This document shows, piece by piece, positions 1-27,300 of a DNA stretch of 64,000 bases. A program made the translations under genes and the position numbers. Source of the stretch: a virus; IMG/VR virus record IMGVR_UViG_3300042924_003416, positions 1 to 64,000 of that record; one strand, given 5' to 3'. The notes below the pieces were generated by a model, which was given only the letters and a program-made list of their open reading frames with translations, was not told the origin of the DNA and did not search any database. Position 1 is the first letter of the stretch. Every line of letters begins with the position of its first letter.

Positions 1-272
1 TATCTTCTTATTCATTCATTATCTTTGATATCACTGATAATACTAATGACAATATCTACTTATTGAAATTGTCTTGGGATAATCAATTGAAATGGTGGTA
101 TCAAAATGGTACTATGGACTACATGGGACGTACTCAAGGATTCCAGTCTTCTGGTCAGTTCAATGGATACCGAGTAATGATGTCTCAAACTATGCCTGCA
201 ATTTGGGTAAAAGATCCAACTAAGGTATTGAAGATTGTTATGAGAAACCCAGTAACTGGTGGATCATTCTAA
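1..272 (+). CDS. Probable major capsid protein, C-terminal end (partial)
   Basis: The reading frame is open from the first full codon at position 3 to a TAA at 270-272, so the gene begins upstream of the window. About 89 residues are visible. The tail contains GFQSSGQFNGYRVMM and, near the end, WVKDPTKVLKIVMRNP. A fold-closing stretch of this kind, with an aromatic-rich loop followed by a V-x-x-P-x-K/x-VLKI segment, resembles the C-termini of HK97-fold capsid proteins of crAss-like phages as I remember them. Position also fits: it is followed by a strong terminator and then by the structural genes that normally follow the capsid gene in this group. A TTG at 63 could open a short ORF, but the upstream frame is fully coding, so that is not a real start. 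The capsid identity is inferred. Another abundant virion protein is possible. Confidence 0.55.
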   Translation, partial: SSYSFIIFDITDNTNDNIYLLKLSWDNQLKWWYQNGTMDYMGRTQGFQSSGQFNGYRVMMSQTMPAIWVKDPTKVLKIVMRNPVTGGSF

Positions 273-289
273 TCCGACTCTATATATAC

Positions 290-319
290 AGGGAGGGGGA
301 AACTCCTCCCTATTTTTTT
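290..319 (+). terminator. Rho-independent terminator after the probable capsid gene
   Basis: AGGGAGG at 290-296 pairs with CCTCCCT at 305-311, extendable by one or two pairs inward, and is followed by seven T at 313-319. It sits 17 bases after the stop codon. It would separate the very abundant capsid transcript from the downstream genes. Confidence 0.85.
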
Positions 320-347
320 AATTTAATAACCAACAAAAAAAACCAAC

Positions 348-1367
348 ATGGAAACACAATTTACAATGGTCGAAGTAGGAGTAGGCAGCATCAAAAAAAC
401 ATCAATTGCTGTTAGACCTTACTTTGATAAACAAGCCACTAACATGGGATTAGAGGAATATGGAATGAGTCTTTTTGACGGAGTAACTCATAATGAACAA
501 TTAGCATGTCTTGAACTCAACGGAGTTGTAAGATATATTACTGGTTTAAATGAATTTGCTCCAGAAATTAAATTACTTGATCCAGATAGAAGAGAGGCAA
601 GAATTAAAGAGATAAGAAGTTCAGTTGCTGAATTAGAAAAAGAATTAGCAGCAAATGTTATTGATCCAGAAGATAAAGATTTTTGGAATAAAGTAACATT
701 ACTTCAACCTAATAATTCAGAATTTTGGAACAAGATAGAAATGTCATGTGGTAATGAACCCGTATATCTAGATCCAATTAAACCATTTGATAGAATTAAA
801 CTTCATGCTATTGAAGCAGGAGGATTTGCTATGATTGCAAAAAGTTTTGATGATGCAAGATCAAAAGCAGTTCCACCTAAATTCTACCTAGATAAAGAAG
901 AAGAAACTGTAATGGTAAGAACAGAGTACAAAAAACTCCGTAACAAAGCTTACTCAGAATTACAAAAATTATATGACAAAAACAGTACTAAGTTATTCTA
1001 CATTGCTAAAGTTGTTGATGCTAACAGTTCTCAGTATAGAAAATCAACTCCACTGGATGTTATCTATGAAAATATGGATAAATACATTGCAGGTGAAGGA
1101 GCTGAATCTAACAAGGAAAGAGCAGCAAAAGGATTTATTGATGCAGTTAATTTAGACATGGAATCATTAAAAATTAAATCAATTGTTAAAGATTCCAGTT
1201 TTTTTAAGTATATTATTAATAAGCCGGATGGATATATTTACCATAGTAAAACAAATGCTTTACTTGGAAGAAATGTATCAGATGTTATTGAGCACTTAAA
1301 AAATCCTTTAAATGAGGATATACTTAAGGATTTAATAATTTCCTGCGAGAAGTATTGGAACACTTAA
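348..1367 (+). CDS. Conserved crAss-like virion-associated protein, unknown role
   Basis: This 339-residue protein starts after the A-rich leader AACCAACAAAAA, a Bacteroidota-style initiation region without a Shine-Dalgarno box. It is mixed charged and mostly alpha-helical in appearance. It has a Glu/Lys-rich helix at about residues 80-105 and two FWNK motifs at about 112-130. The C-terminal 70 residues, with KSIVKDSSFFKYIINKPDGY, resemble a small compact domain. No signal peptide or membrane segment is seen. It is the first gene after the capsid terminator and runs into the cluster of small basic proteins with a 12-base gap. I believe similar proteins follow the capsid gene in crAss-like phages, where they are annotated only as structural. 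A decoration, scaffold or auxiliary capsid role would fit, but the sequence does not show one. Confidence 0.6.
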   Translation: METQFTMVEVGVGSIKKTSIAVRPYFDKQATNMGLEEYGMSLFDGVTHNEQLACLELNGVVRYITGLNEFAPEIKLLDPDRREARIKEIRSSVAELEKELAANVIDPEDKDFWNKVTLLQPNNSEFWNKIEMSCGNEPVYLDPIKPFDRIKLHAIEAGGFAMIAKSFDDARSKAVPPKFYLDKEEETVMVRTEYKKLRNKAYSELQKLYDKNSTKLFYIAKVVDANSSQYRKSTPLDVIYENMDKYIAGEGAESNKERAAKGFIDAVNLDMESLKIKSIVKDSSFFKYIINKPDGYIYHSKTNALLGRNVSDVIEHLKNPLNEDILKDLIISCEKYWNT

Positions 1368-1379
1368 ATTTAAAATAAA

Positions 1380-1724
1380 ATGAAAAACCTAGTTAAAGCT
1401 CAAAAAGGTATAATGGTTAAAAAACCAAAAATAAAAATAACTGGACCAAAAGACAACCCATTTAAAAAAGATGCTCCATCAGATACTACTAAAATAAAGA
1501 AGTATCAAAAAGGTGGAACAATGAAAAAAATGAAAACTGGGGGAATGGTTAATTCCAATACTAAAGTTCAAGCAGATAATACTCCTGGTTCTAAAGGAGT
1601 TAAGTCTGGAATTAATCCAAAAGCTGCTGCTTCTAAAGTTGCTAGAGGTAAAGTAGGTGGTACATCTACTGCTCCAAAAGGAGCTTTTCCTAAAGCAAAA
1701 ATGAAAGGTTCTAAAAAGTCTTAA
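1380..1724 (+). CDS. Small lysine-rich protein with KAQKG and QKGG tags
   Basis: A 114-residue, very basic, low-complexity protein rich in Lys, Gly, Ala, Ser and Thr. The N-terminus reads MKNLVKAQKG, which places the recurrent [hydrophobic]-x-K-A-Q-x-G motif at residues 4-10. Around residues 41-56 it has YQKGGTMKKMKTGGM, two copies of the x-x-G-G tag found across this cluster. The C-terminal half resembles a disordered DNA- or RNA-binding tail with GKVGG, KAKMKG and a final KKS. No enzyme motif is present. The gene begins 12 bases after its neighbour and is followed by a start only two bases downstream. I recognise the general type from environmental phages but know no function. A packaged DNA-condensing or scaffold-associated protein is an inference. 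Confidence 0.7.
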   Translation: MKNLVKAQKGIMVKKPKIKITGPKDNPFKKDAPSDTTKIKKYQKGGTMKKMKTGGMVNSNTKVQADNTPGSKGVKSGINPKAAASKVARGKVGGTSTAPKGAFPKAKMKGSKKS

Positions 1725-1726
1725 TA

Positions 1727-1879
1727 ATGACCAAAGAATTAATAAAAAGAAAAGACGGTAGTTATTCCCAGAGAGGACTCTGGGATAACATCCGTGCTAA
1801 TAAAGGTTCTGGAAAGAAACCTACAAGTCAAATGCTTAAACAGGAAAAGAAAATTAAAGCAACTACTAAAAAGAAATAG
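1727..1879 (+). CDS. 50-residue basic phage protein with GLWDNIRA motif
   Basis: A short gene running from an ATG at 1727, two bases after the previous stop, to TAG at 1877-1879, two bases before the next ATG. The exact packing between neighbours and the protein content support it. It encodes 50 residues with YSQRGLWDNIRANKGSGKKP at about 13-32 and a lysine-rich tail ending in TTKKK. The RGLWDNIRAxxxxGxKP pattern is one I recognise from many small proteins of marine and freshwater tailed phages, always of unknown function. It is probably a virion-associated or packaged peptide, given where it lies. Confidence 0.75.
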   Translation: MTKELIKRKDGSYSQRGLWDNIRANKGSGKKPTSQMLKQEKKIKATTKKK

Positions 1880-1881
1880 TT

Positions 1882-2109
1882 ATGCCGATAAAAAAAACAA
1901 CAACAGTTAAAAAAACACCTACTAAGAAATCTTCAGTAGGTATTTCTATTTCTGCACCGGCTAAGGCAGAAATGAGAAAGTGGGAAATTGAATCTGCATT
2001 AAGTACTTTAAAGAGAGCAGATGAGATTAGAAAGGATGCAAAGATGATGAATGATGTTAAGAAATTAGCTCAGGAACAAATGAGTGTTTTAAAAACATTT
2101 AGTAAATAG
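1882..2109 (+). CDS. 75-residue basic helical phage protein
   Basis: The N-terminus (residues 1-20) is a Lys/Thr-rich tail, MPIKKTTTVKKTPTKK, probably disordered. Residues 29-75 form one or two amphipathic helices with RKWEIESALSTLKRADEIRK followed by KMMNDVKKLAQEQM. Small proteins with this KWExESALxTLxxAxEIRKDxKMM pattern occur in many environmental tailed phages, but I know no function for them. It lies two bases after the previous stop and is followed by a TAGTCATGG junction, so it is almost certainly translationally coupled to its neighbours. A nucleic-acid-associated or head-internal protein is plausible because of the charge. Confidence 0.75.
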   Translation: MPIKKTTTVKKTPTKKSSVGISISAPAKAEMRKWEIESALSTLKRADEIRKDAKMMNDVKKLAQEQMSVLKTFSK

Positions 2110-2111
2110 TC

Positions 2112-2624
2112 ATGGCAAGAGTTACTGCTGATGGTGAAAAGCACAGGATTTATAAAAAAACCACCAAAAGAGGTGAGGGTAAACCTGGTAATATAATGGT
2201 CAACCATCCTACCAAAGATAAAGGACAGTGGGATACAATTGACTTAACCAAAAAGTCAGGAGCAAAAACTATTAAACAAGGTATTGCAGCAACTAGGAAG
2301 TGGCATAAAGAAAACCCTTATCCTAAACCTAAAATGGCTAATGGTGGATCTAGTCCAGCTTGGACAAGAAAAGAAGGTAAGAATCCAGAAGGTGGTCTTA
2401 ATGCAAAAGGTGTAGCAAGTTATAGAGCAGCTAATCCTGGTAGTAAACTTAAGACAGCAGTAACTACCAAACCTTCTAAACTTAAACCTGGAAGTGAAGC
2501 TGCAGGAAGACGTAAAAGTTTCTGTGCTAGGATGAGTGGAATGAAAAAAAAATTAACCAGCAGTAAAACGGCTAATGATCCTGATTCAAGGATCAATAAG
2601 TCATTAAGAAAATGGAATTGTTAA
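2112..2624 (+). CDS. Lysine-rich phage protein of the WTRKEGKNPEGGLN type (DUF6321-like)
   Basis: A 170-residue basic protein. Residues 1-75 include short strands and an HKENPYPKP segment. Then comes the tag MANGGSS, followed by a block I recognise from many environmental and T4-like phages: SPAWTRKEGKNPEGGLNAKG, then ANPGSKLKTAVTT and KPSKLKPGSEAAGRRKSF, and finally CARMSGM and LRKWNC. I believe this block is filed as DUF6321, of unknown function. The conserved Cys in FCARM and the terminal WNC suggest a small metal-binding or disulphide-stabilised fold, which is an inference. It starts two bases after a TAG stop in a TAGTCATGG junction. A DNA-binding or packaged role is suggested only by its charge and context. 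Confidence 0.8.
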   Translation: MARVTADGEKHRIYKKTTKRGEGKPGNIMVNHPTKDKGQWDTIDLTKKSGAKTIKQGIAATRKWHKENPYPKPKMANGGSSPAWTRKEGKNPEGGLNAKGVASYRAANPGSKLKTAVTTKPSKLKPGSEAAGRRKSFCARMSGMKKKLTSSKTANDPDSRINKSLRKWNC

Positions 2625-2641
2625 TTTAAATTATATTTATT

Positions 2642-3178
2642 ATGAAAAAGTGTATGTCAGGATGTGGAGGTAAAATGCAAAAAGGTGGCAAAGTTTCTCC
2701 TGTTAAGAAAATGCAAAAAGGTGGTGTAACTAAAGGTCGTTGGGAATTTAATAAAGATGGTAGTCTTAAAACATTTGAATCTGAAAGAGAAAAGAATAAA
2801 GGAACGGGTCTTAAAACAAACGATAAATATAAAAAAATACAAGAGGATATTGAAAAAAGAACTGGAAAAAAATCTTCTTTAAAGTATCAAAAGGGTGGTA
2901 TTGCAAAACAAGAAATTGTTGGTATGCCTGGATACAATGCAAGAACTGATACCATGAAAAAGGGTGGTTCAGCTAAAAAGTTTGCAGCACTGGCACCTCC
3001 ATATGACAAAGCAACCTATGCAGATAAAATTGTTGGTGCAAAGAAAAAAGCTAAATTTGGTGCATCTGTTCCAGTACAACATTCTCCATCTCCAGGTAGA
3101 GTTAGATCTTCTTCTGGTGTAGGTACAGTACCTGTAGGGGCACGTAAACAAATGGGTGGTTCAACTAAAAGAAAATAG
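2642..3178 (+). CDS. Lysine-rich protein with repeated QKGG tags
   Basis: A 178-residue highly basic protein made mostly of short tags. It has CMSGCGGKMQKGGK near the N-terminus, KKMQKGG at about 22-28, YQKGGIAK at about 82-89, TMKKGGSAKKFAALAPPYDK at about 104-123, and QMGGSTKRK at the C-terminus. The KKFAALAPPYDKxTxADKIxGAKKKAK pattern is familiar from small proteins of environmental phages but has no known function. The N-terminal CxxxCGG could bind metal. The gene lies 17 bases after its neighbour and ends in a TAGTCATGG junction. It is the richest copy of the x-x-G-G tag among the small proteins and could serve as a heavily modified or cleaved packaged protein. That is an inference from the tags and neighbours. 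Confidence 0.75.
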   Translation: MKKCMSGCGGKMQKGGKVSPVKKMQKGGVTKGRWEFNKDGSLKTFESEREKNKGTGLKTNDKYKKIQEDIEKRTGKKSSLKYQKGGIAKQEIVGMPGYNARTDTMKKGGSAKKFAALAPPYDKATYADKIVGAKKKAKFGASVPVQHSPSPGRVRSSSGVGTVPVGARKQMGGSTKRK

Positions 3179-3180
3179 TC

Positions 3181-3327
3181 ATGGCAGAAAAGAAGGATAA
3201 GAAGTGGATACAAAAAGCAGTTAACCCTAAACATAAAGGTTTCTGTACTCCAATGTCTAAACCTACTTGTACTCCTAAAAGAGCAGCTCTTGCTAGAACA
3301 TTTAAAAAAATGGCTAAAAATAAATAA
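3181..3327 (+). CDS. 48-residue basic phage protein with GFCTPMSKPTCTP motif
   Basis: This short gene fits exactly between the TAG at 3176-3178 and the next ATG at 3329. It encodes 48 residues with KKWIQKAVNPKHKGFCTPM, then KPTCTPKRAALARTFKK. The GFCTPMxKxTCTPRRxALARxFKK pattern is one I recognise from many tailed phages of aquatic environments, where it is annotated as hypothetical. Two Cys and one His may form a small metal site. It belongs to the lysine-rich cluster and starts in a TAGTCATGG junction. Confidence 0.8.
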   Translation: MAEKKDKKWIQKAVNPKHKGFCTPMSKPTCTPKRAALARTFKKMAKNK

Positions 3328-3328
3328 C

Positions 3329-3847
3329 ATGAAAAAGACAAATAAAGTTCATCCAATAACTGCATTTAGAAAAGCTAATGAATCTAGACAAGCTAAAGTA
3401 AAAAAGTCTATTAAGAAAGCTCAGGATGGTATTCAAGTACCTTATGCTTATGCACCAGCTGCAAAAACTTCTTATTGGTTTGATAACCCAAACAAAAGAG
3501 CAGCATATGATGCAGGAACTAGAGAATCAGCAGCAAGGATAAGAGATAATAACAATGATGAGAATGCTGAAAGAGAATATAAAAGATTAGCAGATAGTTA
3601 TTCACCAAATGGTCCTAACTTAGATTTACCAAATGAGATGAAAGCTTTAAATCAAAAGTATCCATACTATGAAGGTTTTGAAGAAAAACCTTTTTTAGGA
3701 GGTAAAAACAATAAAGGTTGGGATCAAGTAAGAAAAGATAAACCAATTAAAGATAAAAGCTATAAACAAATGGATCCCAAATCTGAATATATGGGAGAAC
3801 CTGAATGGAAAAAGAAAGGTGGATCTGTAAGAAGAAAAAAGAAGTAA
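3329..3847 (+). CDS. Lysine-rich protein with KKAQDG motif and C-terminal KKGG tag
   Basis: A TTG at 3290 would overlap the previous gene by 38 bases. The ATG at 3329, one base after that gene's stop, is the better start and gives 172 residues. The basic N-terminus contains the recurrent motif as IKKAQDG at residues 28-34. This is followed by a Tyr/Asn/Arg-rich middle (YAYAPAAKTSYWFDNPNKRA at about 38-57) and a C-terminal KKKGGSVRRKKK. The design of basic leader, KAQxG, body and GG tag matches the N-termini of the large cargo proteins downstream. I do not recognise the body. It may be a small packaged protein sharing a sorting or cleavage signal with the large ones. Confidence 0.75.
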   Translation: MKKTNKVHPITAFRKANESRQAKVKKSIKKAQDGIQVPYAYAPAAKTSYWFDNPNKRAAYDAGTRESAARIRDNNNDENAEREYKRLADSYSPNGPNLDLPNEMKALNQKYPYYEGFEEKPFLGGKNNKGWDQVRKDKPIKDKSYKQMDPKSEYMGEPEWKKKGGSVRRKKK

Positions 3848-3850
3848 GAC

Positions 3851-4549
3851 ATGCTTAATAGTACTATTACCATAAAGATGAAACAAAGGCTTAACAAGCT
3901 TGACAGTCAGGATTATGACAACATAACCTGTTGGCAAGTAGTTGAGTCTTTTAATAAAGCTCAGGTAGAGTGGTCAAGAAGACAGCTTCATGGTATTAAT
4001 GTTGTCAAAGAAGGTGATGAACAATCTACTCGTAGAAAAGATGACTTACAAAAATTATTAATAAGAGAACCTTTAACAGCTACAAAAAAAGATATTTATT
4101 ATGAAGGAAACATTCCGGGAGATTATCTTCAATGGAAAAGAGTAGATATCTATGCTAAGAAAGATTGTTGTGATCCAAGAAGAATGACAGTATATCTTGC
4201 AGAAGAAGGAAACCTTAATCAACTTCTAAGAGATAAAGCTAAACAACCTAACTTTGAATGGGCCGAAACTTTTGCAACACTTATTAATGATACAGTACAT
4301 TTGTATACAAATGGAGAGTTTGATATATCTGAAGCATTTCTTACCTATTATAGACAACCTAGAAAAATACAAGTAACAGGATGTTCAGATCCGTATACAG
4401 GAGCAACTTCTTCTACTGAAGTAGAATGTGAGTTTAAGGATGATATCATAGAATTAATAATAGACGAAGCAGTAAGTATTTTAGCTGGAGACATAGAGTC
4501 AGGAAACCAGTTCTCTAGAACACAAGAATCTGCAGAAAGAAGTAACTAA
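3851..4549 (+). CDS. Conserved crAss-like virion protein, probable connector or ring component
   Basis: A 232-residue protein. It opens with a helical region containing WQVVESFNKAQVEWSRRQLH (about 29-48), followed by a beta-rich middle (YYEGNIPGDYLQWKRVDIYA at about 84-103). Near the C-terminus is a helix with LIIDEAVSILAGDIESGNQF. The pattern FNKAQxEWxRRQLHG plus AGDIES.NQ is one I associate with a short conserved structural protein of crAss-like phages that lies near the capsid and connector genes. It has no signal peptide or membrane helix. It is separated from the ferritin gene by only two bases, so the two are probably made together. Assignment to a ring or neck protein is inferred from context. 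The family itself is fairly likely. Confidence 0.6.
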   Translation: MLNSTITIKMKQRLNKLDSQDYDNITCWQVVESFNKAQVEWSRRQLHGINVVKEGDEQSTRRKDDLQKLLIREPLTATKKDIYYEGNIPGDYLQWKRVDIYAKKDCCDPRRMTVYLAEEGNLNQLLRDKAKQPNFEWAETFATLINDTVHLYTNGEFDISEAFLTYYRQPRKIQVTGCSDPYTGATSSTEVECEFKDDIIELIIDEAVSILAGDIESGNQFSRTQESAERSN

Positions 4550-4551
4550 TT

Positions 4552-5166
4552 ATGGAAGCAAAACCAAGATCTTTAAAAAGACCAAATAGTAATGTTGTAG
4601 GATTAGAAAACCAACATATGGATATTTCTAAACCTAGTGAAGGAGCTACAACAGAAGTTCCAACAACTAAAACAAAGAATCCTTTACTAGATGATTCATG
4701 TGCTAGTTATCTTAACTATAGAATACAACAGGAGGAATATTCAGCAAGAATATATCTTTCAATGTCTATGTGGTTAAATAATGAAGGTTACATGGGTGCA
4801 GCTGCACTATGGAGAACATATTCTGATGAAGAAATGAAACATGCTGATATAGCACGAAAGTATATGTTATCATTTGGTATTCAACCAGCAACTCCTAGAT
4901 TAGATCAACCTAAACAAACATTTTCAGGTCTTCCTGAAATCATTAAACTTTCATTTGAACATGAGATAGAAGTTTCTAAACAAATTAAAGAAATGGCTAA
5001 TCATGCATTATCTGATGGAGATCATATGCTGTATGAACTATGTCTTGCTTATCTTAAAGAACAAGTTGAAGAACATGATAAGACTCAAACTTGGATGGAT
5101 AAATTAGAAGCATTTGGTACAGATAAGATTGCTCTTAGGTTACTTGATAACGAAATGGCAGGATAA
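4552..5166 (+). CDS. Ferritin (FtnA-type, non-haem) with N-terminal extension
   Basis: This protein of 204 residues is a bacterial-type ferritin that would oxidise Fe(II) and store iron in a 24-mer cage. The four-helix domain covers about residues 48-190. Compared with E. coli FtnA, the diiron ligands align as E61 (EEYSARIYL), E94 and H97 (DEEMKHAD), E136 (FEHEIEV), and Q171 and E174 (EQVEEHDK), with Y68 at the conserved tyrosine position. Helix spacings match to within two residues. The ferroxidase site therefore looks intact. The first 47 residues form a Ser/Thr/Pro/Lys-rich extension not found in ordinary ferritins, which could attach the cage to the virion or be cleaved. The gene starts two bases after the upstream structural gene and is the last one before an inverted repeat and candidate promoter. 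AT content matches its neighbours, so any transfer from a host is old. Confidence 0.92.
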   Translation: MEAKPRSLKRPNSNVVGLENQHMDISKPSEGATTEVPTTKTKNPLLDDSCASYLNYRIQQEEYSARIYLSMSMWLNNEGYMGAAALWRTYSDEEMKHADIARKYMLSFGIQPATPRLDQPKQTFSGLPEIIKLSFEHEIEVSKQIKEMANHALSDGDHMLYELCLAYLKEQVEEHDKTQTWMDKLEAFGTDKIALRLLDNEMAG

Positions 5167-5174
5167 TTTTTTTA

Positions 5175-5201
5175 AAAAGTTTTGATATTTAAAAAACTTT
5201 T
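5175..5201. repeat. Inverted repeat between ferritin gene and candidate promoter
   Basis: AAAAGTTTT at 5175-5183 is the exact reverse complement of AAAACTTTT at 5193-5201, with a nine-base loop. It overlaps the first bases of the candidate promoter 12-mer and is not followed by a T-run. It could be an operator, a weak terminator for the upstream operon or an RNA-processing site. Confidence 0.5.
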
Positions 5202-5220
5202 AGTATATTATAGTATATTT
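5199..5220 (+). promoter_or_regulatory. Candidate phage late promoter (TTTAGTATATTA)
   Basis: TTTAGTATATTA at 5199-5210 is followed directly by a second partial copy, TAGTATATTT, at 5211-5220. The identical 12-mer occurs at 13630 and 28821, also just upstream of a gene start, and a variant lies at 9842. It lies about 35 bases before the ATG of the next gene. Its AT-rich core is like an extended -10 element. Which polymerase reads it is unknown. Confidence 0.5.
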
Positions 5221-5244
5221 ATTTATTAACAAAAACAAAAAACA

Positions 5245-6624
5245 ATGAGTTATTTTAATCATGCTTTTAGAAAAGTCCTTTTGGCAACAAATGGAGTTTC
5301 TAATTTAAATGGTGTTCAGTTAGGTACTCCAACTGCACCAGGGGCTACAACTTATAATCAGTTAGCTCCAGCTCAAATTACATTTATTAACCCCGATGAC
5401 TTTGAAGTTTCACCAACACCTAACACAGAACCATGCTGTGGTGTTATTGTTGCTTCAGGTTCAATTTATCCAAATGATAAAATTGGTAAATTTCACGGAG
5501 GATATTTAGAGTCTAACAAGACTAAAACTATCAAACCTCAGTATGTAAGTAAATACTGGTATGTTGAAGCTAATGCTCCTTCTAGATATGTAACTAATGT
5601 TGGATACACTCCTTGGAATGTAGCTAATCCACCATCAAGTTCTAATCCAGGAGAAACAGCAGGTACTTGTTGTAAAGAATTTTTATGTGGTGAAACTTAC
5701 TATTTACGTTTAGATGTTAAAGGTTCTCCAGCATTAAGATTATTAGATCACAATGCTTACTTAACTCTTGAAGCATATACTGGATGTTGTCCAGATTCTC
5801 CAGATGATCCGTTGATTGCACCGGTACCTGTAGATCCTAGAAAAGTATATTTTGCTTGGGCAAATCAAATTTTAAATTCTCCAATCATCAATCCTTTTGT
5901 ATATCCAATTGTAACATTTTATGATGACAATACAGGAGATTGGACTTATTACTATCCAGATACAGTTAATACAGCAACATTACCACCAGCTGGTCCTGGT
6001 GTAACTTATGCTAACTACTCTGATTGGACAGAAGAAGCTTATACAGTAGATATGTGTGCAGGATTTACTTTAACTGGTGCTTATGAAGAGACTAAGTTTG
6101 GTAACTGTACATTCCAAGTTTCTGATTTCTATGAATTAGAGCCAGTAAGAATCTATGCTTCTGAAACAGATTTAACAGGTGCTCCATGTGAGTTCCAAAC
6201 ACTTTGTGTAGGTGTAGAATGTTATGGTTTACAAGCTAATGGAGTTGGGGAAACTGTAGCAAGAGATTTCATCTTGTCAGAATCTTACAGACAAAGTTTC
6301 TTCCATAGTGATTTCAGGATTCGTGAGATTACTCAAGGTGATGCAATTGTAGGATGTAATGGATTTATTAATAGAAATCAACTTTATGATAGAATTTATT
6401 TACTACATAATGTTCCACGTTTCTATAACCCATCTGGTACATTTGACAATGATCAATACTTAGTAGAGATTATTGTTGATCAAGGTGATATCAATAGCCC
6501 AACTGGGGTTTGGAATGCAATTAATGATTGGTTAGATACATGTACTACATGTAGTGCAAAACCAACTGTTACTGGTAGCAATTGTGAAGCTCCAATTGTA
6601 CCTTTCCCTGGTGACGAGGATTAA
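5245..6624 (+). CDS. Abundant virion structural protein candidate (auxiliary capsid or tail-type)
   Basis: A 459-residue protein beginning MSYFNHAFRKVLLAT. The conserved-looking block VIVASGSIYPNDKIGKFHGG at about residues 70-89 leads into YLESNKTKTIKPQYVSKYWY. Similar openings (xxYFNHAFxK..GT) and the ASGS.Y.NDKIG.FHGGY.ESNKSK block occur, from memory, in abundant structural proteins of environmental tailed phages. The rest is beta-rich with many paired cysteines (CCG, TCCKEFLC, GCC, CTTC), suggesting metal sites or disulphides in the extracellular particle. There is no signal peptide. The gene has its own candidate promoter and ends in a strong terminator, a single-gene transcript as expected for a product needed in very many copies. 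The exact position in the virion is not shown by the sequence. Confidence 0.6.
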   Translation: MSYFNHAFRKVLLATNGVSNLNGVQLGTPTAPGATTYNQLAPAQITFINPDDFEVSPTPNTEPCCGVIVASGSIYPNDKIGKFHGGYLESNKTKTIKPQYVSKYWYVEANAPSRYVTNVGYTPWNVANPPSSSNPGETAGTCCKEFLCGETYYLRLDVKGSPALRLLDHNAYLTLEAYTGCCPDSPDDPLIAPVPVDPRKVYFAWANQILNSPIINPFVYPIVTFYDDNTGDWTYYYPDTVNTATLPPAGPGVTYANYSDWTEEAYTVDMCAGFTLTGAYEETKFGNCTFQVSDFYELEPVRIYASETDLTGAPCEFQTLCVGVECYGLQANGVGETVARDFILSESYRQSFFHSDFRIREITQGDAIVGCNGFINRNQLYDRIYLLHNVPRFYNPSGTFDNDQYLVEIIVDQGDINSPTGVWNAINDWLDTCTTCSAKPTVTGSNCEAPIVPFPGDED

Positions 6625-6644
6625 TTAAAGTTTTAAAAACTCAT

Positions 6645-6684
6645 AAAAGGAGAGTGAGAGTATAACCTCTTCCTCTCCTTTTTT
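6645..6684 (+). terminator. Rho-independent terminator
   Basis: AAAAGGAGAG at 6645-6654 pairs over ten bases with CTCTCCTTTT at 6673-6682, with an 18-base loop and a T-run at 6679-6684. It lies 20 bases after the stop of the preceding structural gene and closes that short transcription unit. Confidence 0.8.
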
Positions 6685-6696
6685 ATTATAATACAT

Positions 6697-7239
6697 ATGG
6701 CAAATCATGTTTTAAGTTTAGAAATTCCTACTGTATCAAATCCTTGTGTACTTAAGATATTTGATACCAGTGTATATTCACCATTAGTAGGTTTGCATAA
6801 TCCAAGATTGGAAGTAGTTATTCCTGGGTTTACATATACTGCAGAATTAGCATTTACACCTGATTCTACTCCTACACTTACAGCATGTGATTTAGGATTA
6901 CAAACAGAAAACTGTGGTACATCTTATGTTAATTTGCCAGATGGTATTTATGGTATTAAATATATTGTAGATCCAGAGTGTCAAGTATATGTAAGTTATA
7001 ATCATCTTAGAATAACTTGTGCTCTAAATAGATATGAAAAAATACTTTGTACTTTGAGTATCTCAGATTGTGATCCTCCAGCAAAGATTAAGCAGAAGCT
7101 GAGAGATCTTCATTTAATTAAAATGTATTTAGAAGCAGCAAAAGCAAAAGTAGAAACATGTCATGAAAACCAAGAAGGTATGACATTATTTAATTATGCT
7201 GTCAAACTTTTAAATAAATTTGAATGTAGAAATTGTTAA
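6697..7239 (+). CDS. Two-domain phage structural protein (beta-sandwich plus helical Cys domain)
   Basis: Residues 1-110 are beta-rich and contain the block NLPDGIYGIKYIVDPECQVY followed by YNHLRITCALNRY, a pattern I recognise from crAss-like and related Bacteroidota phages. Residues 115-180 are helical, with LRDLHLIKMYLEAAKAKVET followed by CHENQEGMTLFNYAVKLLNK and a terminal ECRNC, which may bind zinc with the earlier Cys. The gene follows the terminator at 6684 with only 12 bases, and a TATAAT lies at 6687-6692, too close to the ATG for a normal leader. It starts the appendage gene run. It is likely a head- or tail-fibre-associated adaptor. That role is an inference. Confidence 0.6.
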   Translation: MANHVLSLEIPTVSNPCVLKIFDTSVYSPLVGLHNPRLEVVIPGFTYTAELAFTPDSTPTLTACDLGLQTENCGTSYVNLPDGIYGIKYIVDPECQVYVSYNHLRITCALNRYEKILCTLSISDCDPPAKIKQKLRDLHLIKMYLEAAKAKVETCHENQEGMTLFNYAVKLLNKFECRNC

Positions 7240-7258
7240 CTTTTAAAAACCAACAAAA

Positions 7259-7462
7259 ATGAGTACTTGTCCTAATTGTAATAAAAAATTATCCTGTGGA
7301 TGTCAGATGAGAACAGCATCTAATGGTAGAAAAGTATGTACTAATTGCTCCTCTTCCTATGAAAGAAGTTTAAAACCTCAAAAAGTAGAACCAGCAAAAC
7401 AAGTTGATGCTAATGTTTGGGGGAAGGATAGATATAAAAACTTAAGTAAATTTATCAAATAA
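7259..7462 (+). CDS. Small zinc-ribbon-like protein
   Basis: A 67-residue protein with CPNC at residues 4-7, then CGC at about 13-15, and CTNC at about 27-30, an arrangement typical of a small treble-clef or ribbon zinc site. After residue 35 it is a basic tail with KPQKVEPAK and a WGKDRYKNL segment. Very similar short proteins (xxCPNCxKKLSCGCQxRxAxxGxxVCxxC) are familiar from environmental tailed phages, always of unknown role. The leader AAACCAACAAAAATG matches that of the gene at 348. It ends one base before the next ATG, so it is coupled to the large Cys-rich protein downstream and may assist or cap it. Confidence 0.7.
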   Translation: MSTCPNCNKKLSCGCQMRTASNGRKVCTNCSSSYERSLKPQKVEPAKQVDANVWGKDRYKNLSKFIK

Positions 7463-7463
7463 A

Positions 7464-9842
7464 ATGGCCGGAGTTCCTAGATATAATATTATACCATGTT
7501 GTCCTGAGTCAGGTACTCAAATAACAAACTTTCATATACCTGATGGTCCAGTACCCAATGGTGTATATGTATACAATGGAACAAATACTGTTATTAATGG
7601 TGTATCATTTGAAAATGGTCAGTGTTATACAATACAAGGAGCTGGTACTAATTTTGTTTCCTATCCTGAAGCACCAAGTTATAATGATTTTACACTTGTT
7701 TCTAATTGTTCTGATGAACAATGTATTGCATGTGAACCACTGTTTGACCGTGAAATAATAAGATTCACAAGCTGTTGTGATGATACTGAGTTCTTAGAAT
7801 TTATATATGATGGTACAACAGATTATGGTACACTTGTAAAACCTACTACATTATTTCCAGGCTTTTCAGATAGTTGTTATATAGTAAATACTTATTTAGG
7901 TTCAAATTGGGTTGGTTTAGGACCTGCCCCTTCTTTAGCTTATTTTACAGTAATTACAACAGATCCTGAAGCAAAGTGTACAGATCCTGAATACCAAGAA
8001 ATATGTGACTGTCAACCAAAGTGTTATACACTAGTTAATTGTGATGGTATATCATTTCCTAGTACAAATCCATTTTTAGAAACTCAAGCTACTGTAGGTG
8101 ACTATGTAGTAATTTCTATAGATGGTGAATTATCAACCTGGTTACTACTAGAAAATACAGGACCTTGTAATAATCCTTTTAATGACTTTGGTATTTCTGA
8201 TACTCCTCCAACACCTTGTCCTTGTTTATGTTACGAGATTGTTGGTACTTTAAAATCATTATTATATGTTAATTGTGATAATGAAGTAGTTAAGGATTCT
8301 ACAATAAAAAAGTTTTGTTCAAGAATCTATCCTATTTTTTCTGGTACACCTGGTCAATTTCAAATAATTCAAGGTGAAGAATGTATAGACGGTTTATGTC
8401 CTACTGTTTGTTATAAACTTACAAACTGTGACACAGAAGAAGTTATATATTCTACTCTTCAGACTTTATCTCAATATGTAAATACAAATTCTGTAGTTTC
8501 ATTATTAGGATATGAAGGTTGTTGGAATGTAGATGAAAGTACATCAACAGATTGTGATTGTATTACTGTAACTATAGAAGATAGATCTGGAGTAACTGAA
8601 TATACAGCAACTACTGTAGGGACTTATAATGGTTGGGGCACATGGAAATTTACAATTGGTACAGATGAATTTTTTATTTGGAATAATGATATAAATCCTA
8701 ATTCAGAATGGTTAATTTCAATTAATGACTGTTGTGGAAATCCAGGTCAGACTTATGCAGAAAGTAAAGTTAACAGTGATTGTCCAGAATCAATTAGTGA
8801 TGGTAGTCCAACAGGTTGGGTAATTCAAGAAGGAGTTCCATGGATAAATGTTCAAACTGAAAAATGTCCGGGTCCTTGTGAATGTCCTGTAGATATTACT
8901 ATACTTCAAGAGTTTACTTCTTGTGAGACTTGTGAACCATATGTAGCTTATAAACTTCAGAATTGTGAAAAGATATATGAAGTACAATATACTACTCAAG
9001 ATTTATCAGCATATGTAAATCAAGTTGTAGAAACTGATTGTGGATGTTTTACTGTACAACAAATTAATTATGTACCACCATCTGAAACATTAGTTATAAT
9101 TGATAATACTTTTAAAACATGTAATAACTGTTTATCTACATTTTATTTACTGACAGATTGTGCTGGTGAAGTTGGTGATATAGTAACTACAACAGATTTA
9201 TCTGACTATGTAGGGGGTGTTATTAAAATAGAGAATTGTGATACATGTTGGGAAGTAACTACAACTAGAACATTTACTGAGTTATCTAATGTTGTAGTAG
9301 TTAATTCTTATGAAGGTTGCCCAGAATGTGGTATTGATTTACCATGTGTATGTTCTAAAATAACTAATCTTACATTAACTGAACAAACAGTTGAATACAT
9401 TGATTGTGAAGATGAAACACAAGAAATAACATTGGAGGTAGGAGAAACATCTGAAAAAATTTGTTTAAAAAAATGGATATTTCCTAATTTACCTGATGGT
9501 CAGTTTCTCTACCCAGAATACTTTGGTAATTGTCAAAATGGAGTATGTCCACAACCTGTATTTAAAAATAACAGAACTGTAAGACCTGGCTACAATACTC
9601 CTGTATGTACACCTAATAAGTATGATGAGATAACATGTAGGTTTGCAGATATAATGTATAAAGTAGTTCTTGAAAAAAGATACGGTATAACTAACTGTTG
9701 TCCTGATGAAGATGACAAATGGTTAGTACAAAAAGAGTTAATAGATTTACAAGCTTTAAAAGATCCAAACTATAATTGTCCAAGTTGCCCATGCCCTTGT
9801 AATTCAGGAAAAACATGTTCTACTTGCAATTGTAAAAAATAA
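7464..9842 (+). CDS. Cys-rich repeat protein, probable appendage or adhesin
   Basis: A 792-residue, extremely Cys-rich beta protein. A module of about 50-60 residues recurs, with the form Y-x-L-x-[N/D]-C, then D-L-S-x-Y-V, then C-[W/F]-x-V. Clear copies read YKLTNCDTEEVIYSTLQTLS, YKLQNCEKIYEVQYTTQDLS and YLLTDCAGEVGDIVTTTDLS. Weaker ones lie near the N-terminus (YTLVNCDGISF). The last 70 residues hold a separate helical segment, KRYGITNCCPDEDDKWLVQK, and a Cys cluster, CPSCPCPCNSGKTCSTCNC. I recognise this module family from large virion proteins of environmental phages. It is probably a rigid, metal- or disulphide-stabilised fibre or host-binding arm. It sits between the zinc-ribbon gene and two fibre-like genes. 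Confidence 0.65.
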   Translation: MAGVPRYNIIPCCPESGTQITNFHIPDGPVPNGVYVYNGTNTVINGVSFENGQCYTIQGAGTNFVSYPEAPSYNDFTLVSNCSDEQCIACEPLFDREIIRFTSCCDDTEFLEFIYDGTTDYGTLVKPTTLFPGFSDSCYIVNTYLGSNWVGLGPAPSLAYFTVITTDPEAKCTDPEYQEICDCQPKCYTLVNCDGISFPSTNPFLETQATVGDYVVISIDGELSTWLLLENTGPCNNPFNDFGISDTPPTPCPCLCYEIVGTLKSLLYVNCDNEVVKDSTIKKFCSRIYPIFSGTPGQFQIIQGEECIDGLCPTVCYKLTNCDTEEVIYSTLQTLSQYVNTNSVVSLLGYEGCWNVDESTSTDCDCITVTIEDRSGVTEYTATTVGTYNGWGTWKFTIGTDEFFIWNNDINPNSEWLISINDCCGNPGQTYAESKVNSDCPESISDGSPTGWVIQEGVPWINVQTEKCPGPCECPVDITILQEFTSCETCEPYVAYKLQNCEKIYEVQYTTQDLSAYVNQVVETDCGCFTVQQINYVPPSETLVIIDNTFKTCNNCLSTFYLLTDCAGEVGDIVTTTDLSDYVGGVIKIENCDTCWEVTTTRTFTELSNVVVVNSYEGCPECGIDLPCVCSKITNLTLTEQTVEYIDCEDETQEITLEVGETSEKICLKKWIFPNLPDGQFLYPEYFGNCQNGVCPQPVFKNNRTVRPGYNTPVCTPNKYDEITCRFADIMYKVVLEKRYGITNCCPDEDDKWLVQKELIDLQALKDPNYNCPSCPCPCNSGKTCSTCNCKK

Positions 9843-13643: not shown

Positions 13644-14225
13644 ATGAAGGAATTTAAAAAACCTGATGTAAAAGCTTCTAGGTATAGACCAGAAGTTAGC
13701 ACTATTTTGAACAAAGAGTTCTTTGATAATTTTAAAAAAACACATCCTAGATATAAGGATATTGATAATAAAATACTTAGAAAGATAATTAAAAGATTTA
13801 ATCAAGTATTATATCAAACAGTTATTGATACTAGAGATGGTGTTCAGTTACCAGAACAAATAGGTTGGCTATTTATAGGAACATGTCAAAGAAGCAAAAA
13901 AGATAATGTTGACTATGCTAAGTCTAATAAATATGGTGTTACTGTAACTAATAACAATTGGGAAACTGATGGTAAGTTAGCTAAAATATTCTTTAGTAAC
14001 TATGCACCAAAACACAAAATTAAGAATAGAGAATTTTGGGGTTTTACTGCATCTAGAGAATTTAAAAGAACCGTTGCAAAACTATATCCAGAAAATTGGA
14101 ATATGTATGTTCAAGTGTTACCCGGATCAAAAATTGATAAAGTATATAATAGTGCTATGTACAAAGACTACTTAAACAGAGTAAATAAAGTTGCTTTAAA
14201 AAGCTATAATGAATTTGACATATGA
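13644..14225 (+). CDS. Conserved crAss-like virion protein, connector or tail block
   Basis: A 193-residue basic protein. The N-terminal half includes helices with FDNFKKTHPRYKDIDNKILR and a strand-rich DGVQLPEQIGWLFIGTC. The second half has NNWETDGKLAKIFFSNYAPK and NREFWGFTASREFKRTVAKL, which I associate with a conserved short protein next to the connector genes of crAss-like phages. The only early ATG is at 13644, two bases after a promoter-like motif. Its stop overlaps the next start by four bases (ATGA), so the next two genes are translationally coupled to it. No catalytic motif is visible. A structural or assembly role is inferred from position. Confidence 0.6.
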   Translation: MKEFKKPDVKASRYRPEVSTILNKEFFDNFKKTHPRYKDIDNKILRKIIKRFNQVLYQTVIDTRDGVQLPEQIGWLFIGTCQRSKKDNVDYAKSNKYGVTVTNNNWETDGKLAKIFFSNYAPKHKIKNREFWGFTASREFKRTVAKLYPENWNMYVQVLPGSKIDKVYNSAMYKDYLNRVNKVALKSYNEFDI

Positions 14226-14884
14226 CAACAATTGGTGAAGCAATATCAAGAGTAAGGAATACCCTTAAAGCTGTTAAGGAGGATCCTTTTCTTACAGATA
14301 GGACTATATACTATTCTTTAACAAAGTATGGTCAAACTCTTCTTAAGAGAGAAGACAATCAATTTAGATTGATGAAGATAAGTTCTATTTTTAAAGTGCT
14401 TCCGTATGTTGAACTTATTGATGTAGATAAAGTAGAGGCTGGTTGTATTGGTGTATATTCAGGATGTTACTTTAAAAGATCTAAAGATAAACTACCAACT
14501 ATATTTGATGGAGCTATGGGACCTATCATACGTACAGTATCTTCTATAGATGGTGGTATAGAAATGTTTAGGACAGATCCTGGTACTTGGGTTTCTATAA
14601 CTAAGTCGACAACATTTAAGTATAATAAGAGACCTTACTTCTGGTATCTTAATGGTTACTTATATTGTCCTAATATAGATTGGGATGCAATTAGAGTAGA
14701 AGCTGTTTTTGAAGGTGCTATAGAATCTTGTGATACTGATGCATGTCAAATAAGACAAGATGATCCTTTACCTTTTCCAGAATATTTATTTTCTGAAATA
14801 GAGCAATTTGTAGTAAAAGAATTAACCATGGCTATGCAGGTACCAACTGATGGACCTGATGATAGTCAAAATGCACTTAGATAA
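14222..14884 (+). CDS. Probable ring or head-tail adaptor protein
   Basis: A 220-residue protein starting in an ATGA overlap. The N-terminus is helical, TIGEAISRVRNTLKAVKEDP, followed by FLTDRTIYYSLTKYGQTLLK. The middle is beta-rich, with IFDGAMGPIIRTVSSIDGG and TTFKYNKRPYFWYLNGYLYC. The helix-first, beta-later plan and the FLTDRxIYxxLxKY segment match what I remember of a conserved connector-region protein of crAss-like phages. The gene lies immediately before another connector candidate and the very large tail protein. Its place in the neck stack is inferred from gene order. Confidence 0.6.
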   Translation: MTTIGEAISRVRNTLKAVKEDPFLTDRTIYYSLTKYGQTLLKREDNQFRLMKISSIFKVLPYVELIDVDKVEAGCIGVYSGCYFKRSKDKLPTIFDGAMGPIIRTVSSIDGGIEMFRTDPGTWVSITKSTTFKYNKRPYFWYLNGYLYCPNIDWDAIRVEAVFEGAIESCDTDACQIRQDDPLPFPEYLFSEIEQFVVKELTMAMQVPTDGPDDSQNALR

Positions 14885-15930
14885 TGGACTTTAATTACAC
14901 ACTAAAATATAGAACATTTGACCAGTTGCTGGAAGATGTTACTATTGACTTAAATACATTTGCTCTTGAAAATATGATTGAGCCTCAACAGTTAATTAAA
15001 GTAACTCGTAAGGTTAACTATCAATTAGGATTGAGAATAAATCAAACTAAAGAAGTTGTGTTAGATGTTTGTCACCATAAGGTAAAACTTCCTGATGACT
15101 TTTATACATTTAACTTTGCAATGATATGTGGAGAGTTTAAAGAAGTTGTTGGTTATGATGGTATGGCCGGAGGAACTAATATTCAAGAAGTACCATATAG
15201 AGAAGCACCAAGTACTGTTAATACATGTGCTCCTGAAACAGTAAACTGTAGAACATGTAATTCAAATCCATGTAATCATACAGCAGCCTGTGAACTTAAT
15301 CACCCTATAACAGATCCTATACCCACTGCATATGATCCTAATAATCCTTACGGTAATACATGTATTGCTCCAAGAGTATTCATGAACTGCAAGGGTGAAA
15401 AATGGGAACTAATACAAGTCATTAATCCTAGTCTTACAAGAGTTTCTACTTATCTTAAACCGTTAAGAATGAAAGCAAGTCAAGAGATTGAATGTGACTG
15501 TCCAAATCTTTATCATAACACAGCTGATGAAGGATGGATTAAAAACGGATTTTTAAATACAACATTTGAAAGTGGTAAAGTATATTTAAATTATCAAGGT
15601 GACTTGTCTGATGATAACGGTAACTTAATGGTTCCTGATCATGAACTTTTAAATGAGTATTATGAATATGCATTAAAACAAAGAATCTTTGAAAATTTAT
15701 TTATAAATGGTGAAGATGTTTCACAAAGAATGCAGTTAATTGAAGCAAGACTTAAAGAGGCAAGAACTAATGCACTTAGTTTAGTTAATACACCAAACTT
15801 TAAAGAGATGGAACAAATTTGGTGGACTAATAGAAAAGCTATGTATGGTAAGTACTATTACATGTTTATGAGTCATTCTCCAAATAATCCTTACTTAAGA
15901 AGATATTCTTCAAACAATAGAATTATCTAG
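14884..15930 (+). CDS. Probable ring or tail-tube-region protein
   Basis: A 348-residue protein whose ATG overlaps the previous stop by one base. The N-terminus has YRTFDQLLEDVTIDLNTFAL and then a VTRKVNYQLGLRINQTKEVV strand-helix unit. Around residues 100-150 there is a Cys cluster (NTCAPETVNCRTCNSNPC), possibly metal-binding. The C-terminus is helical, with LLNEYYEYALKQRIFENLFI and a Tyr-rich tail. An LxDVxxDLxxF...I....LIK...KVN..LG.RI opening recurs, from memory, in crAss-like phages next to the large stabilization-type tail protein. The function is therefore probably structural, at the portal-tail interface. It ends two bases before the next ATG. Confidence 0.6.
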   Translation: MDFNYTLKYRTFDQLLEDVTIDLNTFALENMIEPQQLIKVTRKVNYQLGLRINQTKEVVLDVCHHKVKLPDDFYTFNFAMICGEFKEVVGYDGMAGGTNIQEVPYREAPSTVNTCAPETVNCRTCNSNPCNHTAACELNHPITDPIPTAYDPNNPYGNTCIAPRVFMNCKGEKWELIQVINPSLTRVSTYLKPLRMKASQEIECDCPNLYHNTADEGWIKNGFLNTTFESGKVYLNYQGDLSDDNGNLMVPDHELLNEYYEYALKQRIFENLFINGEDVSQRMQLIEARLKEARTNALSLVNTPNFKEMEQIWWTNRKAMYGKYYYMFMSHSPNNPYLRRYSSNNRII

Positions 15931-24345: not shown

Positions 24346-27300
24346 ATGGCTAAATATAGAATAACAAGCATTCCTGCTAATTTACCACAAGCTCAAGATG
24401 GAGGATCTTTTTGGAAAAAAAAATATAATGTTGCTAAGAGTAAAAAACTTAAAAGAAATAAAACAAATACTTCTAAAAGATCTGCAGGAAACTTTTCTAA
24501 TGAAGTAGGAGAATCTATCTCACAAGACCTACCTATGGTAGAAGTCCAAGGTGTTGATCAACCTTCTTACTGGAATCAAATGTCAAGTGATGTTGTACAA
24601 GGTATAGAATGCCCTCCAGGAAAAGAAAACTTTGAAGGAAATTGTTTAACTGAAGATGAAATTCTTAGTATTCTAGATGCTAGAACTGCAGAGATGAAAC
24701 AAAAGAATTTTGATAGACGTGTAGAACAAGGTTTTAAAAAATCAAATGTTTTTGCAGATTCAGAATATGCTTCAAAAATGTTAGGTCGTTATATTTCTGC
24801 TAGGAATCAACAAGAACAAGACTATGATAATTATGCAAATAAGTACTATGATACTTTTAAAAAATCTAAAAAAAGTGATAAAATACAACCGTTTAAAAAG
24901 TTTTCTGCAGAAGAACTAGATCAATTACAAGATGTAGTTGATCAAGAAGGTAATGTAGTTATTGATGAAACAACAGGACAACCACTGCAACAAGCTAAAA
25001 TTGATGCATTTAAAAATAACTTTTTAATTAATAAAACAAAAGATGGTTTTTATGAACTGTATCCAAAAGATATTGTTAGAGATAGAATTTTACAAAGTGG
25101 TTTTAACGAAGAACAATTTAAAAATTTTTGGGGATTAGATCCAGAACAAGTAAAGGAACAGGTAGGTGATATGATAGGTACGGCTAATGAAATCTATAAT
25201 CAAAGATTACAACAACGTATTATTAAAACAGCCATTGATAAAAATATATCTGTTGAAGATGCAATTAAAACAATACCTAAATCTGAAGGTACTCAAACTG
25301 GATTAACAAATAGATTTAAAAAATCTACTCAAAAAATAATTGATGACACTTTTGATATCTATACAAATAGTATGTTAGAGTCTATGTTGTATGATCCTGA
25401 TGTTGCAAAAAAAGATGAAGATGTATTTTATTCAGAAGATCCTAAAACAGCATGGGAAAATAAATATCATGCAGGTGATTTAAAATATATTTCTGACAAA
25501 CAAAGAAAAGGTCAAAAAGCATATGATGAAGCAATTAAAAATTTTAGTAATATAGGTAGTAGTGGTGCATCAGATGAATATTATCAAAATCAAGGTAGGT
25601 ATGATGACAGGATGGCACAACAAAGATTAAAAAATCAAGGTGTACAAAAAGCAATAAATTTATCAAGAGCTGAATCGGCAAGACAAGGAGCACAAGATAA
25701 AAAGTTTAATGATGCATTTGGTCAGTATTTAAGTAATCAAGGAACATCTTATCAAAAAGAATTATTAGGAAAAGCATTTGATAAACTTAGAGCTGACCCT
25801 AAAGCAAAAATAAATTTTTTAAGAGATATTGAAAAATATCCAGACTTGGTTATGGGGGATGTTTTTAATTTAACAGATGATGAGTCTGGTAAAACATATT
25901 CTGATTTATATTCAGAACGTCTTAATGATAGCTATATGAATAGTTTAAAGGCAAGACAAAATACATTTAAAGAAGGTAGTTATAAACCTGAACTTACAAC
26001 AGGTAATAAAATATTTGACTATCTTAGACATCCTTTTCATGCAGCATATTATGCAATGCACCCAACACAAGATATGCATGGTAATTGGAATATTGATTAT
26101 GATACAAGACTAAAGCTTGAAAAAGAAAAAGGTATAAATTTAGGTACTATGGATAAAGTACAAGGATTTAATCCTATGTCAGTTTTAAATTTGACACCAC
26201 TTCAAGCTCTTAATCCTTTTAAAATAGGTAGTAATTTAAGACAGGGATATGATAAAGGAAATTTTATAGGAGCATTAGGTGATGAAATTGTTGATATTGG
26301 TACATCAGTTGGAGCTGCAAAAGGTTTTAATGCATTATCAGGAAGTGGTTTAGGATTAACAAAGGGAGCAGGAACTTTAGTAAGTAGTATATTTAATCCC
26401 TTTAGTGATATAGGATATGCTTTAAAAGCTGGAAAAAATTTAGATAATGCAACTGATTATATTAAAAAAGGTGATTATAAAAATGCAGCTTGGGAAGGTT
26501 TAGAAGGTGGATTAAATGCTATACCACTTATAGGCTTACCAAAGTATTTAAAAGGTTTTAATAGATTTAATGATGCAACAAGTGGATTTAATTTTAATAG
26601 AACATTTAATAATGCAAATCAATTAAATTTTAATAGCCCTAACTTACTTGGAACACAACAAATACCTAAATATAATATATTGAATAAAGATGGACAACTC
26701 ATTCGTAATCAATATAAAAATGGAGGGTCTCTTCCTAAAGCACAATTAGGTAAAATAGTTAGTAGTTTAAAATTATTGGAACCTGTAGAAGTATATGGTA
26801 AACAATTTTTAAGATCACATTATAATCCTTTATCTTATCCTGTTAAACTTGCTGGTTCAAAAGTAGCAGGTTTAAGTTCAGGTGCATTTAGACAACCTGG
26901 AGAAATTGCAAAAGCATTACTTGCAAAAGAAGGTGATTTAACATACAAAGGTCAAAATACAGTTATAGTAAGACCTGGAAGTGAAATTGAAAAAATATAT
27001 ACAGAAGGTGGTAGAGATTTAGTAAAAAATTATATGTTAGGTCAGACAAAAGGATTGCAAGAATTAATGTATGATTTTGAAAAAGATCCTGGACTTAACC
27101 AAGCAATAGATTATTATGGACCATTAAAAGCATATGAATTATATTCTAAAATACCACATGGTGAAAACTTAGGTATACAAGATTTTATGAAACAGGCTTC
27201 AGGTTTTAGTTTTAATAAAGATAAAGTTATTGATGATCTTATGAGTGGGTTTGATCAAAATCTTAATATATTTGATCAATCAAAAAATACTAGATTACTT

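Follow-up and report, generated by a model that had tools for sequence, protein, structure and literature searches.

The ferritin gene and its neighborhood

The window (the whole 64,000-nucleotide stretch of viral DNA analyzed here) comes from a virus record of 85,773 bases, whose plus strand carries virion-type genes as far as 65.6 kb and whose minus strand carries replication-type genes past that point. A tagged ferritin gene of the FtnA type lies at 4552 to 5166 (+) and encodes 204 amino acids. Its ATG is 2 nt past the stop of a 232-amino-acid gene at 3851 to 4549 (+), and on the right is a tail/appendage gene at 5245 to 6624 (+), which is also the right neighbor in relatives whose slot contains a ferritin, contains a Dps-like gene, or is empty. 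A first-pass annotation had placed the ferritin two bases after a structural gene and ahead of appendage genes, and this placement holds, the structural gene being that of the R3/4 neck ring protein.

The R3/4 gene anchors the slot. Its product matches the Pfam family CrAss_Ring_3_4 weakly and under the cut-off (E value, 0.0012), matches the virion structural protein family phrog_29507 with an E value of 5e-12, and has a homolog in Cellulophaga phage phi4:1, gp062 (BLASTP, 1e-13; profile, 6e-19), which is annotated as structural from tandem mass spectrometry (MS/MS) data. Further along the same strand are CrAss ring protein 2 (14222 to 14884; PF25702; E value, 1.7e-22), which marks the phage group, and CrAss ring protein 1 (14884 to 15930; PF24228; E value, 6e-10). 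Because ring proteins 1 and 2 score above the cut-off, and given the weak R3/4 match and the gp062 homology, we regard the phage as crAss-like: its CrAss ring proteins form part of a virion block, with the replication genes on the opposite side, as in the Crassvirales type. Ring protein 2 is also found in 23 of 26 tested carriers of ferritin or Dps, the remaining three being fragments. The Lightbulbvirus phi4:1 resembles this phage in its R2 and R3/4 homologs and its block of MS-verified structural proteins and differs in having neither a ferritin nor a Dps-like gene in the regions checked.

One other gene of the virion block enters the argument below. The giant open reading frame (ORF) at 48113 to 58267 (+) has no Pfam, PHROG, or PDB sequence match, and many of its BLASTP homologs contain the motif (G/S)xDFD(I/N)DK(L/M), which we take to be the DFDxD-type motif of the crAss-like virion RNA polymerase. 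Given that no family matches this ORF, the name putative virion RNA polymerase rests on motif and position.

Residues 53 to 186 of the 4552 to 5166 product match the Pfam ferritin family PF00210 (E value, 7e-25), and the best PDB sequence match is the Vibrio cholerae ferritin 3qz3 (E value, 2.6e-22). Residues 52 to 202 align without gaps to residues 8 to 158 of the Escherichia coli FtnA chain 1eum, and hence phage numbering equals FtnA numbering plus 44. In this register, the FtnA ferroxidase ligands E17, E50, H53, E94, Q127, and E130 become E61, E94, H97, E138, Q171, and E174 of the phage protein; Y24 becomes Y68, and E93, E170, and E173 correspond to the third iron site of FtnA. The first-pass annotation had listed six diiron ligands and Tyr68, all of which stand except E136, which was misnumbered: residue 136 is also a glutamate, but the ligand is E138. 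All 10 residues are invariant among 40 aligned phage ferritins.

The ferritin core, which contains helices A to E and these metal-binding residues, is encoded at 4693 to 5163 (+). An AlphaFold2 model built with a 40-row homolog alignment (mean pLDDT, 83.9) has helices at residues 48 to 77, 81 to 107, 127 to 154, 158 to 188, and 192 to 203, that is, the four-helix bundle and short fifth helix of an FtnA-type ferritin, and in Foldseek it matches 1eum (TMt, 0.95; root mean square deviation, 1.0 Å) and 3qz3 (TMt, 0.93). The structure prediction against FtnA proposed at first pass has therefore returned a four-helix diiron bundle, and the Pfam match, the 1eum match, and the Crassvirales-type virion block together bear out the original reading of an intact ferritin in a virion-gene operon. 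Compared with the five nearest relatives, the core has dN/dS values of about 0.01 to 0.08; by this measure it is under purifying selection. These values, the E values, and 56 homologous phage loci exclude a chance match. Based on the full ligand set, the modeled ferritin fold with its fifth helix, and the purifying selection, the cage is very probably active, as the first-pass annotation had ventured. The protein thus shares with bacterial FtnA (1eum and 3qz3) the fold, the five helices, all ferroxidase ligands, the third-site glutamates, and the tyrosine at the Y24 position; it differs from FtnA in its roughly 30% identity, its NYRxxQEE signature, its tag and linker, and its location in a phage late operon.

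The 56 viral loci that contain this ferritin family share an invariant NYRxxQEE signature in helix A, and they place the gene at several sites. In group A, which includes most contigs, the ferritin lies between R3/4 and the tail gene of the 5245 type. In group B (L039, L042 to L046, and L048 to L055), an untagged ferritin directly follows a giant ORF homologous to that at 48113 to 58267, and its right neighbor is mostly another large ORF, homologous in some cases to the ORF at 58269; a targeted scan for group B ferritins returned no contigs beyond those known. The gene follows a muzzle-type gene region in L047, lies between a homolog of the ORF at 40639 and a giant DFDID protein in L056, precedes a terminase-type gene in L021, and lies in a lysis/terminase region in L027 (lysis and terminase are names assigned by sequence reading). 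Every contig compared is metagenomic, and the matches in annotated phages are only four unannotated gut fragments. A scan of genome contigs for a donor returned mostly actinobacterial ferritins, at 24 to 34% identity. One 5.5-kb contig binned to a Tissierellales metagenome-assembled genome (L148) carries a phage-type ferritin with 66% identity beside a glycosyltransferase-like ORF; it is probably a mis-binned phage fragment.

Tag, linker, and enzyme in the slot behind R3/4

What occupies this slot in other phages? Among the 80 nearest R3/4 relatives, 9 have a ferritin and 62 have a gene of 149 to 172 amino acids that occupies this position and begins in the same way, as in MEAKPRMLKRPTQPEV (Dps-like, L064) versus MEAKPRMLKRPESSVV (ferritin, L061). 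With three further R3/4 queries added to these R3/4-seeded searches, the census came to 175 distinct R3/4-adjacent sites: 138 contain a DUF5856/Dps-like gene, 19 contain a ferritin, 16 are empty, and 2 contain small unrelated ORFs; ferritin is perhaps somewhat overrepresented in these counts, since the R3/4 seeds were taken from ferritin carriers. A ferroxidase-type gene is therefore present in 157 of the 175 slots. The first-pass annotation had asked for a survey of the same locus in related phages; the 56 ferritin loci and the 19 ferritin sites of the census refute an absence of the gene from all relatives. The possibility that the ferritin is an essential structural part was considered and rejected, given the empty sites and the many relatives that lack it.

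The alternative gene belongs to DUF5856/PF19174 (E values, 4e-12 to 2e-15) and to phrog_858, "starvation-inducible transcriptional regulator." H70, H82, D97, and E101 are invariant in all 138 sequences, and their 12/15/4 spacing is exactly that which H51, H63, D78, and E82 have in E. coli Dps; the partner gene thus has the H-12-H-15-D-4-E arrangement of the intersubunit Dps ferroxidase center. Nearly all top Foldseek matches of its model are Dps proteins at a probability of 1.00, but with weak E values (about 0.01) and TM scores of about 0.5. The tentative case for a Dps fold combines the family match and the ligand spacing with a structural match that is weak. The gene shares the locus with the ferritin and has the same tag in relatives; it belongs to another family than ferritin, and its Foldseek E value to solved Dps structures is weak.

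Ferritin and Dps-like genes appear nearly mutually exclusive. Both occur in 2 of 32 ferritin contigs, and none of 27 contigs without a ferritin at the site has one elsewhere; these absences, and with them the exclusivity, are provisional because many contigs are incomplete. The two double carriers, L014 and L019, have a tagged ferritin whose gene overlaps by 1 nt the untagged Dps-like gene behind it, which looks like an exchange intermediate. On the R3/4 tree, the three slot states require at least 11 changes, and well-supported branches alone require at least 4 for each state, counts that are approximate because the tree has long branches.

The exchange has well-defined boundaries. The ferritin gene begins with a tag, MEAKPRSLKRP (4552 to 4584, +), that is common to the ferritin and the Dps-like gene of relatives, and continues with a disordered, variable linker (residues 12 to 47; 4585 to 4692, +); the right boundary of the exchanged module and the intergenic stretch span 5164 to 5244 (+). 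In a BLASTN comparison with the Dps carrier L064, the alignment covers R3/4 and reaches 34 nt into the gene, to 4585, and homology resumes at 5167, the first base past the ferritin stop; with Dps-bearing L065, homology ends at 4581 and resumes at 5164; and with the empty relative L085, it ends at 4558, leaving the remnant ATGGAAG, and resumes at 5164. Homology is thus lost just past the tag and regained at the ferritin stop: the linker and enzyme domain are exchanged while the tag is kept, and this exchange has happened at least several times. The first-pass annotation was right that an N-terminal extension, of roughly 47 residues, is present, and the extension matters; its meaning changes, since it is not a ferritin feature but is shared with the Dps-like gene that holds this position in most relatives. 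Judged by these comparisons, the extension is a property of the locus. As a separate observation, in the close relative L085 (region 3001 to 5850 of that locus), whose R3/4 is 95% identical at the protein level, all that is left of the gene in the slot is its first 7 nt, and an early stop follows; this looks like a loss that was clean and recent.

The tag has the consensus R-[ML]-L-K-R-P, in which the arginine usually stands two residues ahead of L-K-R and the proline often follows. In 138 Dps-like rows, the core columns hold L in 129, K in 125, and R in 124; exact LKR is found in 18 of 24 ferritin rows adjoining R3/4, the rest being LKK or decayed. Almost no ORF in these loci outside the slot starts with an LKR-type tag. 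Away from R3/4, the ferritin lacks the tag in L027, L047, and group B, and in L021 the tag is decayed (KELLKAL versus KRLLKRL in L012) beside a similar linker. Tags are net positive in every case counted (+1 to +4; mean, +2.3 for Dps-like proteins and +1.6 for ferritins), and the Dps-like linkers are slightly negative. In the AlphaFold2 model, residues 1 to 20 are disordered at low pLDDT and residues 21 to 40 have a pLDDT of about 60 to 69. The linker varies in length and has a dN/dS of about 0.2 to 0.8 versus 0.01 to 0.08 for the core; the dN/dS of the tag gives a noisy signal that, for the Dps-like proteins, matches the value of the linker and is no lower. Codon variants of the tag are present but few in this AT-rich DNA, and the tag may have been retained by chance, as DNA only. 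Its conservation could also serve DNA binding or translation start instead of docking.

A proposed role for the cage

In a large group of crAss-like phages, then, the slot behind the R3/4 ring gene codes for a conserved N-terminal peptide, a linker that is flexible, and a ferroxidase domain of the ferritin superfamily. The domain is Dps-like in most relatives, with an FtnA-type ferritin substituted behind the same peptide in this phage and some others. On this basis we posit the following mechanism. Because the gene is 2 nt downstream of R3/4, we infer that the ferritin is made late, probably by translational coupling to R3/4. The products would assemble into cages, presumably a 24-mer for ferritin and a 12-mer for Dps, and would oxidize and store Fe(II). 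The tag may then dock the cage on a phage partner, for which the R3/4 neck ring and packaged DNA are the first candidates; this step is less certain, and it is suggested by a nearly invariant leucine motif that survives domain exchange and is tied to the R3/4 neighborhood. The docked cage would shield the genome and packaged enzymes from iron and peroxide damage, both as the host dies and inside the particle. As we read the sequence pattern, the cage is probably docked on the virion neck or on packaged DNA, where it would quench Fe(II) and reactive oxygen species (ROS), and the pattern suggests a need of these viruses for an iron-handling cage, which the tag would bring to a set place. We consider the chances evenly balanced that the slot holds a late, exchangeable, tag-addressed cage that the tag docks on a phage partner. 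A broader proposal is that crAss-like phages carry a modular cage, addressed by an N-terminal peptide to the neck ring or packaged genome, in which Dps-like and ferritin versions are interchangeable and which serves as an iron/ROS-quenching cage on virions or assembly intermediates; we hold this with slightly less assurance.

The untagged ferritins in late regions of other crAss-like phages imply that the tag is not required for the enzyme to be useful. Could the cage then work free in the cytoplasm, removing Fe(II) from degraded host iron proteins late in infection and outside the particle, with the tag a leftover or a translation-coupling element? The slot gene is dispensable, as the 16 empty sites indicate, and untagged homologs lie in the lysis/terminase region of L027 and, in many cases, beside the vRNAP-like gene. 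The Dps and Mn-catalase genes of gut phages such as the Gratiaviridae, likewise phage-encoded members of the ferritin superfamily, are proposed to relieve oxidative stress (PMC8008677), a reading of the cytoplasmic kind; these are other phages, and the passages on them describe no shared locus, tag, or exchange. A purely cytoplasmic role leaves unexplained, however, why a short amino-acid motif persists among divergent Dps-like proteins and passes to ferritin as well, and why it is lost or decays where the gene has moved from R3/4; we regard such a role as a serious rival, though less likely than docking. Slightly less probable, and likewise a serious rival, is that the tag binds DNA in the manner of the Lys-rich N terminus of E. 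coli Dps. In that case, the exchange would have made a maxi-ferritin into a protein that coats and protects phage DNA as Dps does. The net positive charge of all tags counted and the Dps-like nature of the resident slot gene fit such a tail, but the charge is modest, the Dps-like linkers are slightly negative, and the near-invariant leucine and defined motif resemble a docking peptide more than a loose basic tail. This possibility partly overlaps the docking model, in which packaged DNA is one of the possible partners.

The first-pass annotation had also raised entry through host iron uptake, the "Ferrojan horse," in which an iron-loaded cage on the tail or neck is bait for iron-uptake receptors. 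The neck and tail gene neighborhood is compatible with it, as is gp217 of the Kuttervirus Sajous1, a protein called ferritin-like by Phyre2 (22% identity to its template), encoded near a tail completion gene and detected by MS in particle preparations (PMC10892097). But that phage, from another family, infects TonB and FeoB mutants normally, so that an entry role was examined there and none was found (PMC10892097); moreover, iron stays inside a ferritin cage, and the swap partner is a Dps-like protein at a neck gene, not a receptor-binding gene. We found no support for such an entry route in this phage and consider it very improbable. We give almost no credence to a chance passenger, or a recently acquired host gene with no selected function: the patchy distribution would suit it, but the purifying selection and invariant ligands contradict it, as do the common helix-A signature, the many carriers, and the repeated use of one slot.

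Ferritin-superfamily genes in phages were known before, usually singly and with guessed roles. Our literature search, with subscription journals mostly outside it, returned nothing on ferritin in Crassvirales, on DUF5856, on a tagged Dps behind R3/4, or on a tagged Dps/ferritin exchange; it likewise returned no proteomics on any ferritin or Dps-like carrier, the nearest MS-mapped relative being phi4:1, which lacks the gene. An exchange between two families in one slot points to ferroxidase activity, at a set place or time, as the selected trait, and the short tag makes the binding partner a directly testable question. Whether virions contain enzymes that handle iron, and why Dps genes occur in phages, both become experimentally tractable questions in an abundant phage order. 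If the docking model is true, there would be virions or assembly intermediates with an attached iron/ROS-quenching enzyme cage.

Other features of the virion block

Three further observations concern the virion genes. In the group B contig L042 (positions 112 to 7986), the giant DFDID-motif protein has a helicase domain of the PIF1/UvrD-like kind at its end (AAA_30; E value, 5e-19), fused to the putative virion RNA polymerase. A short motif, [SAL]L-x-KAQ-x-G, is absent from the ferritin and recurs near the N termini of, and within, small Lys-rich and giant cargo-like virion proteins (1380 to 1724, 3290 to 3847, 21485 to 24343, 24346 to 28791, 28849 to 33900, and 33909 to 37382). Searched as [KRQ][AM][QR]xG, it occurs 13 times in this genome versus 2.2 expected by shuffling and, as [KRQ]A[QR]xG, 47 times versus 15 in related loci; the motif may direct packaging or maturation cleavage. 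Finally, in the appendage region at 7259 to 9842, the proteins encoded at 7259 and 7464 are strikingly Cys-rich, with CxxC repeats, and are possibly metal binding or disulfide stabilized.
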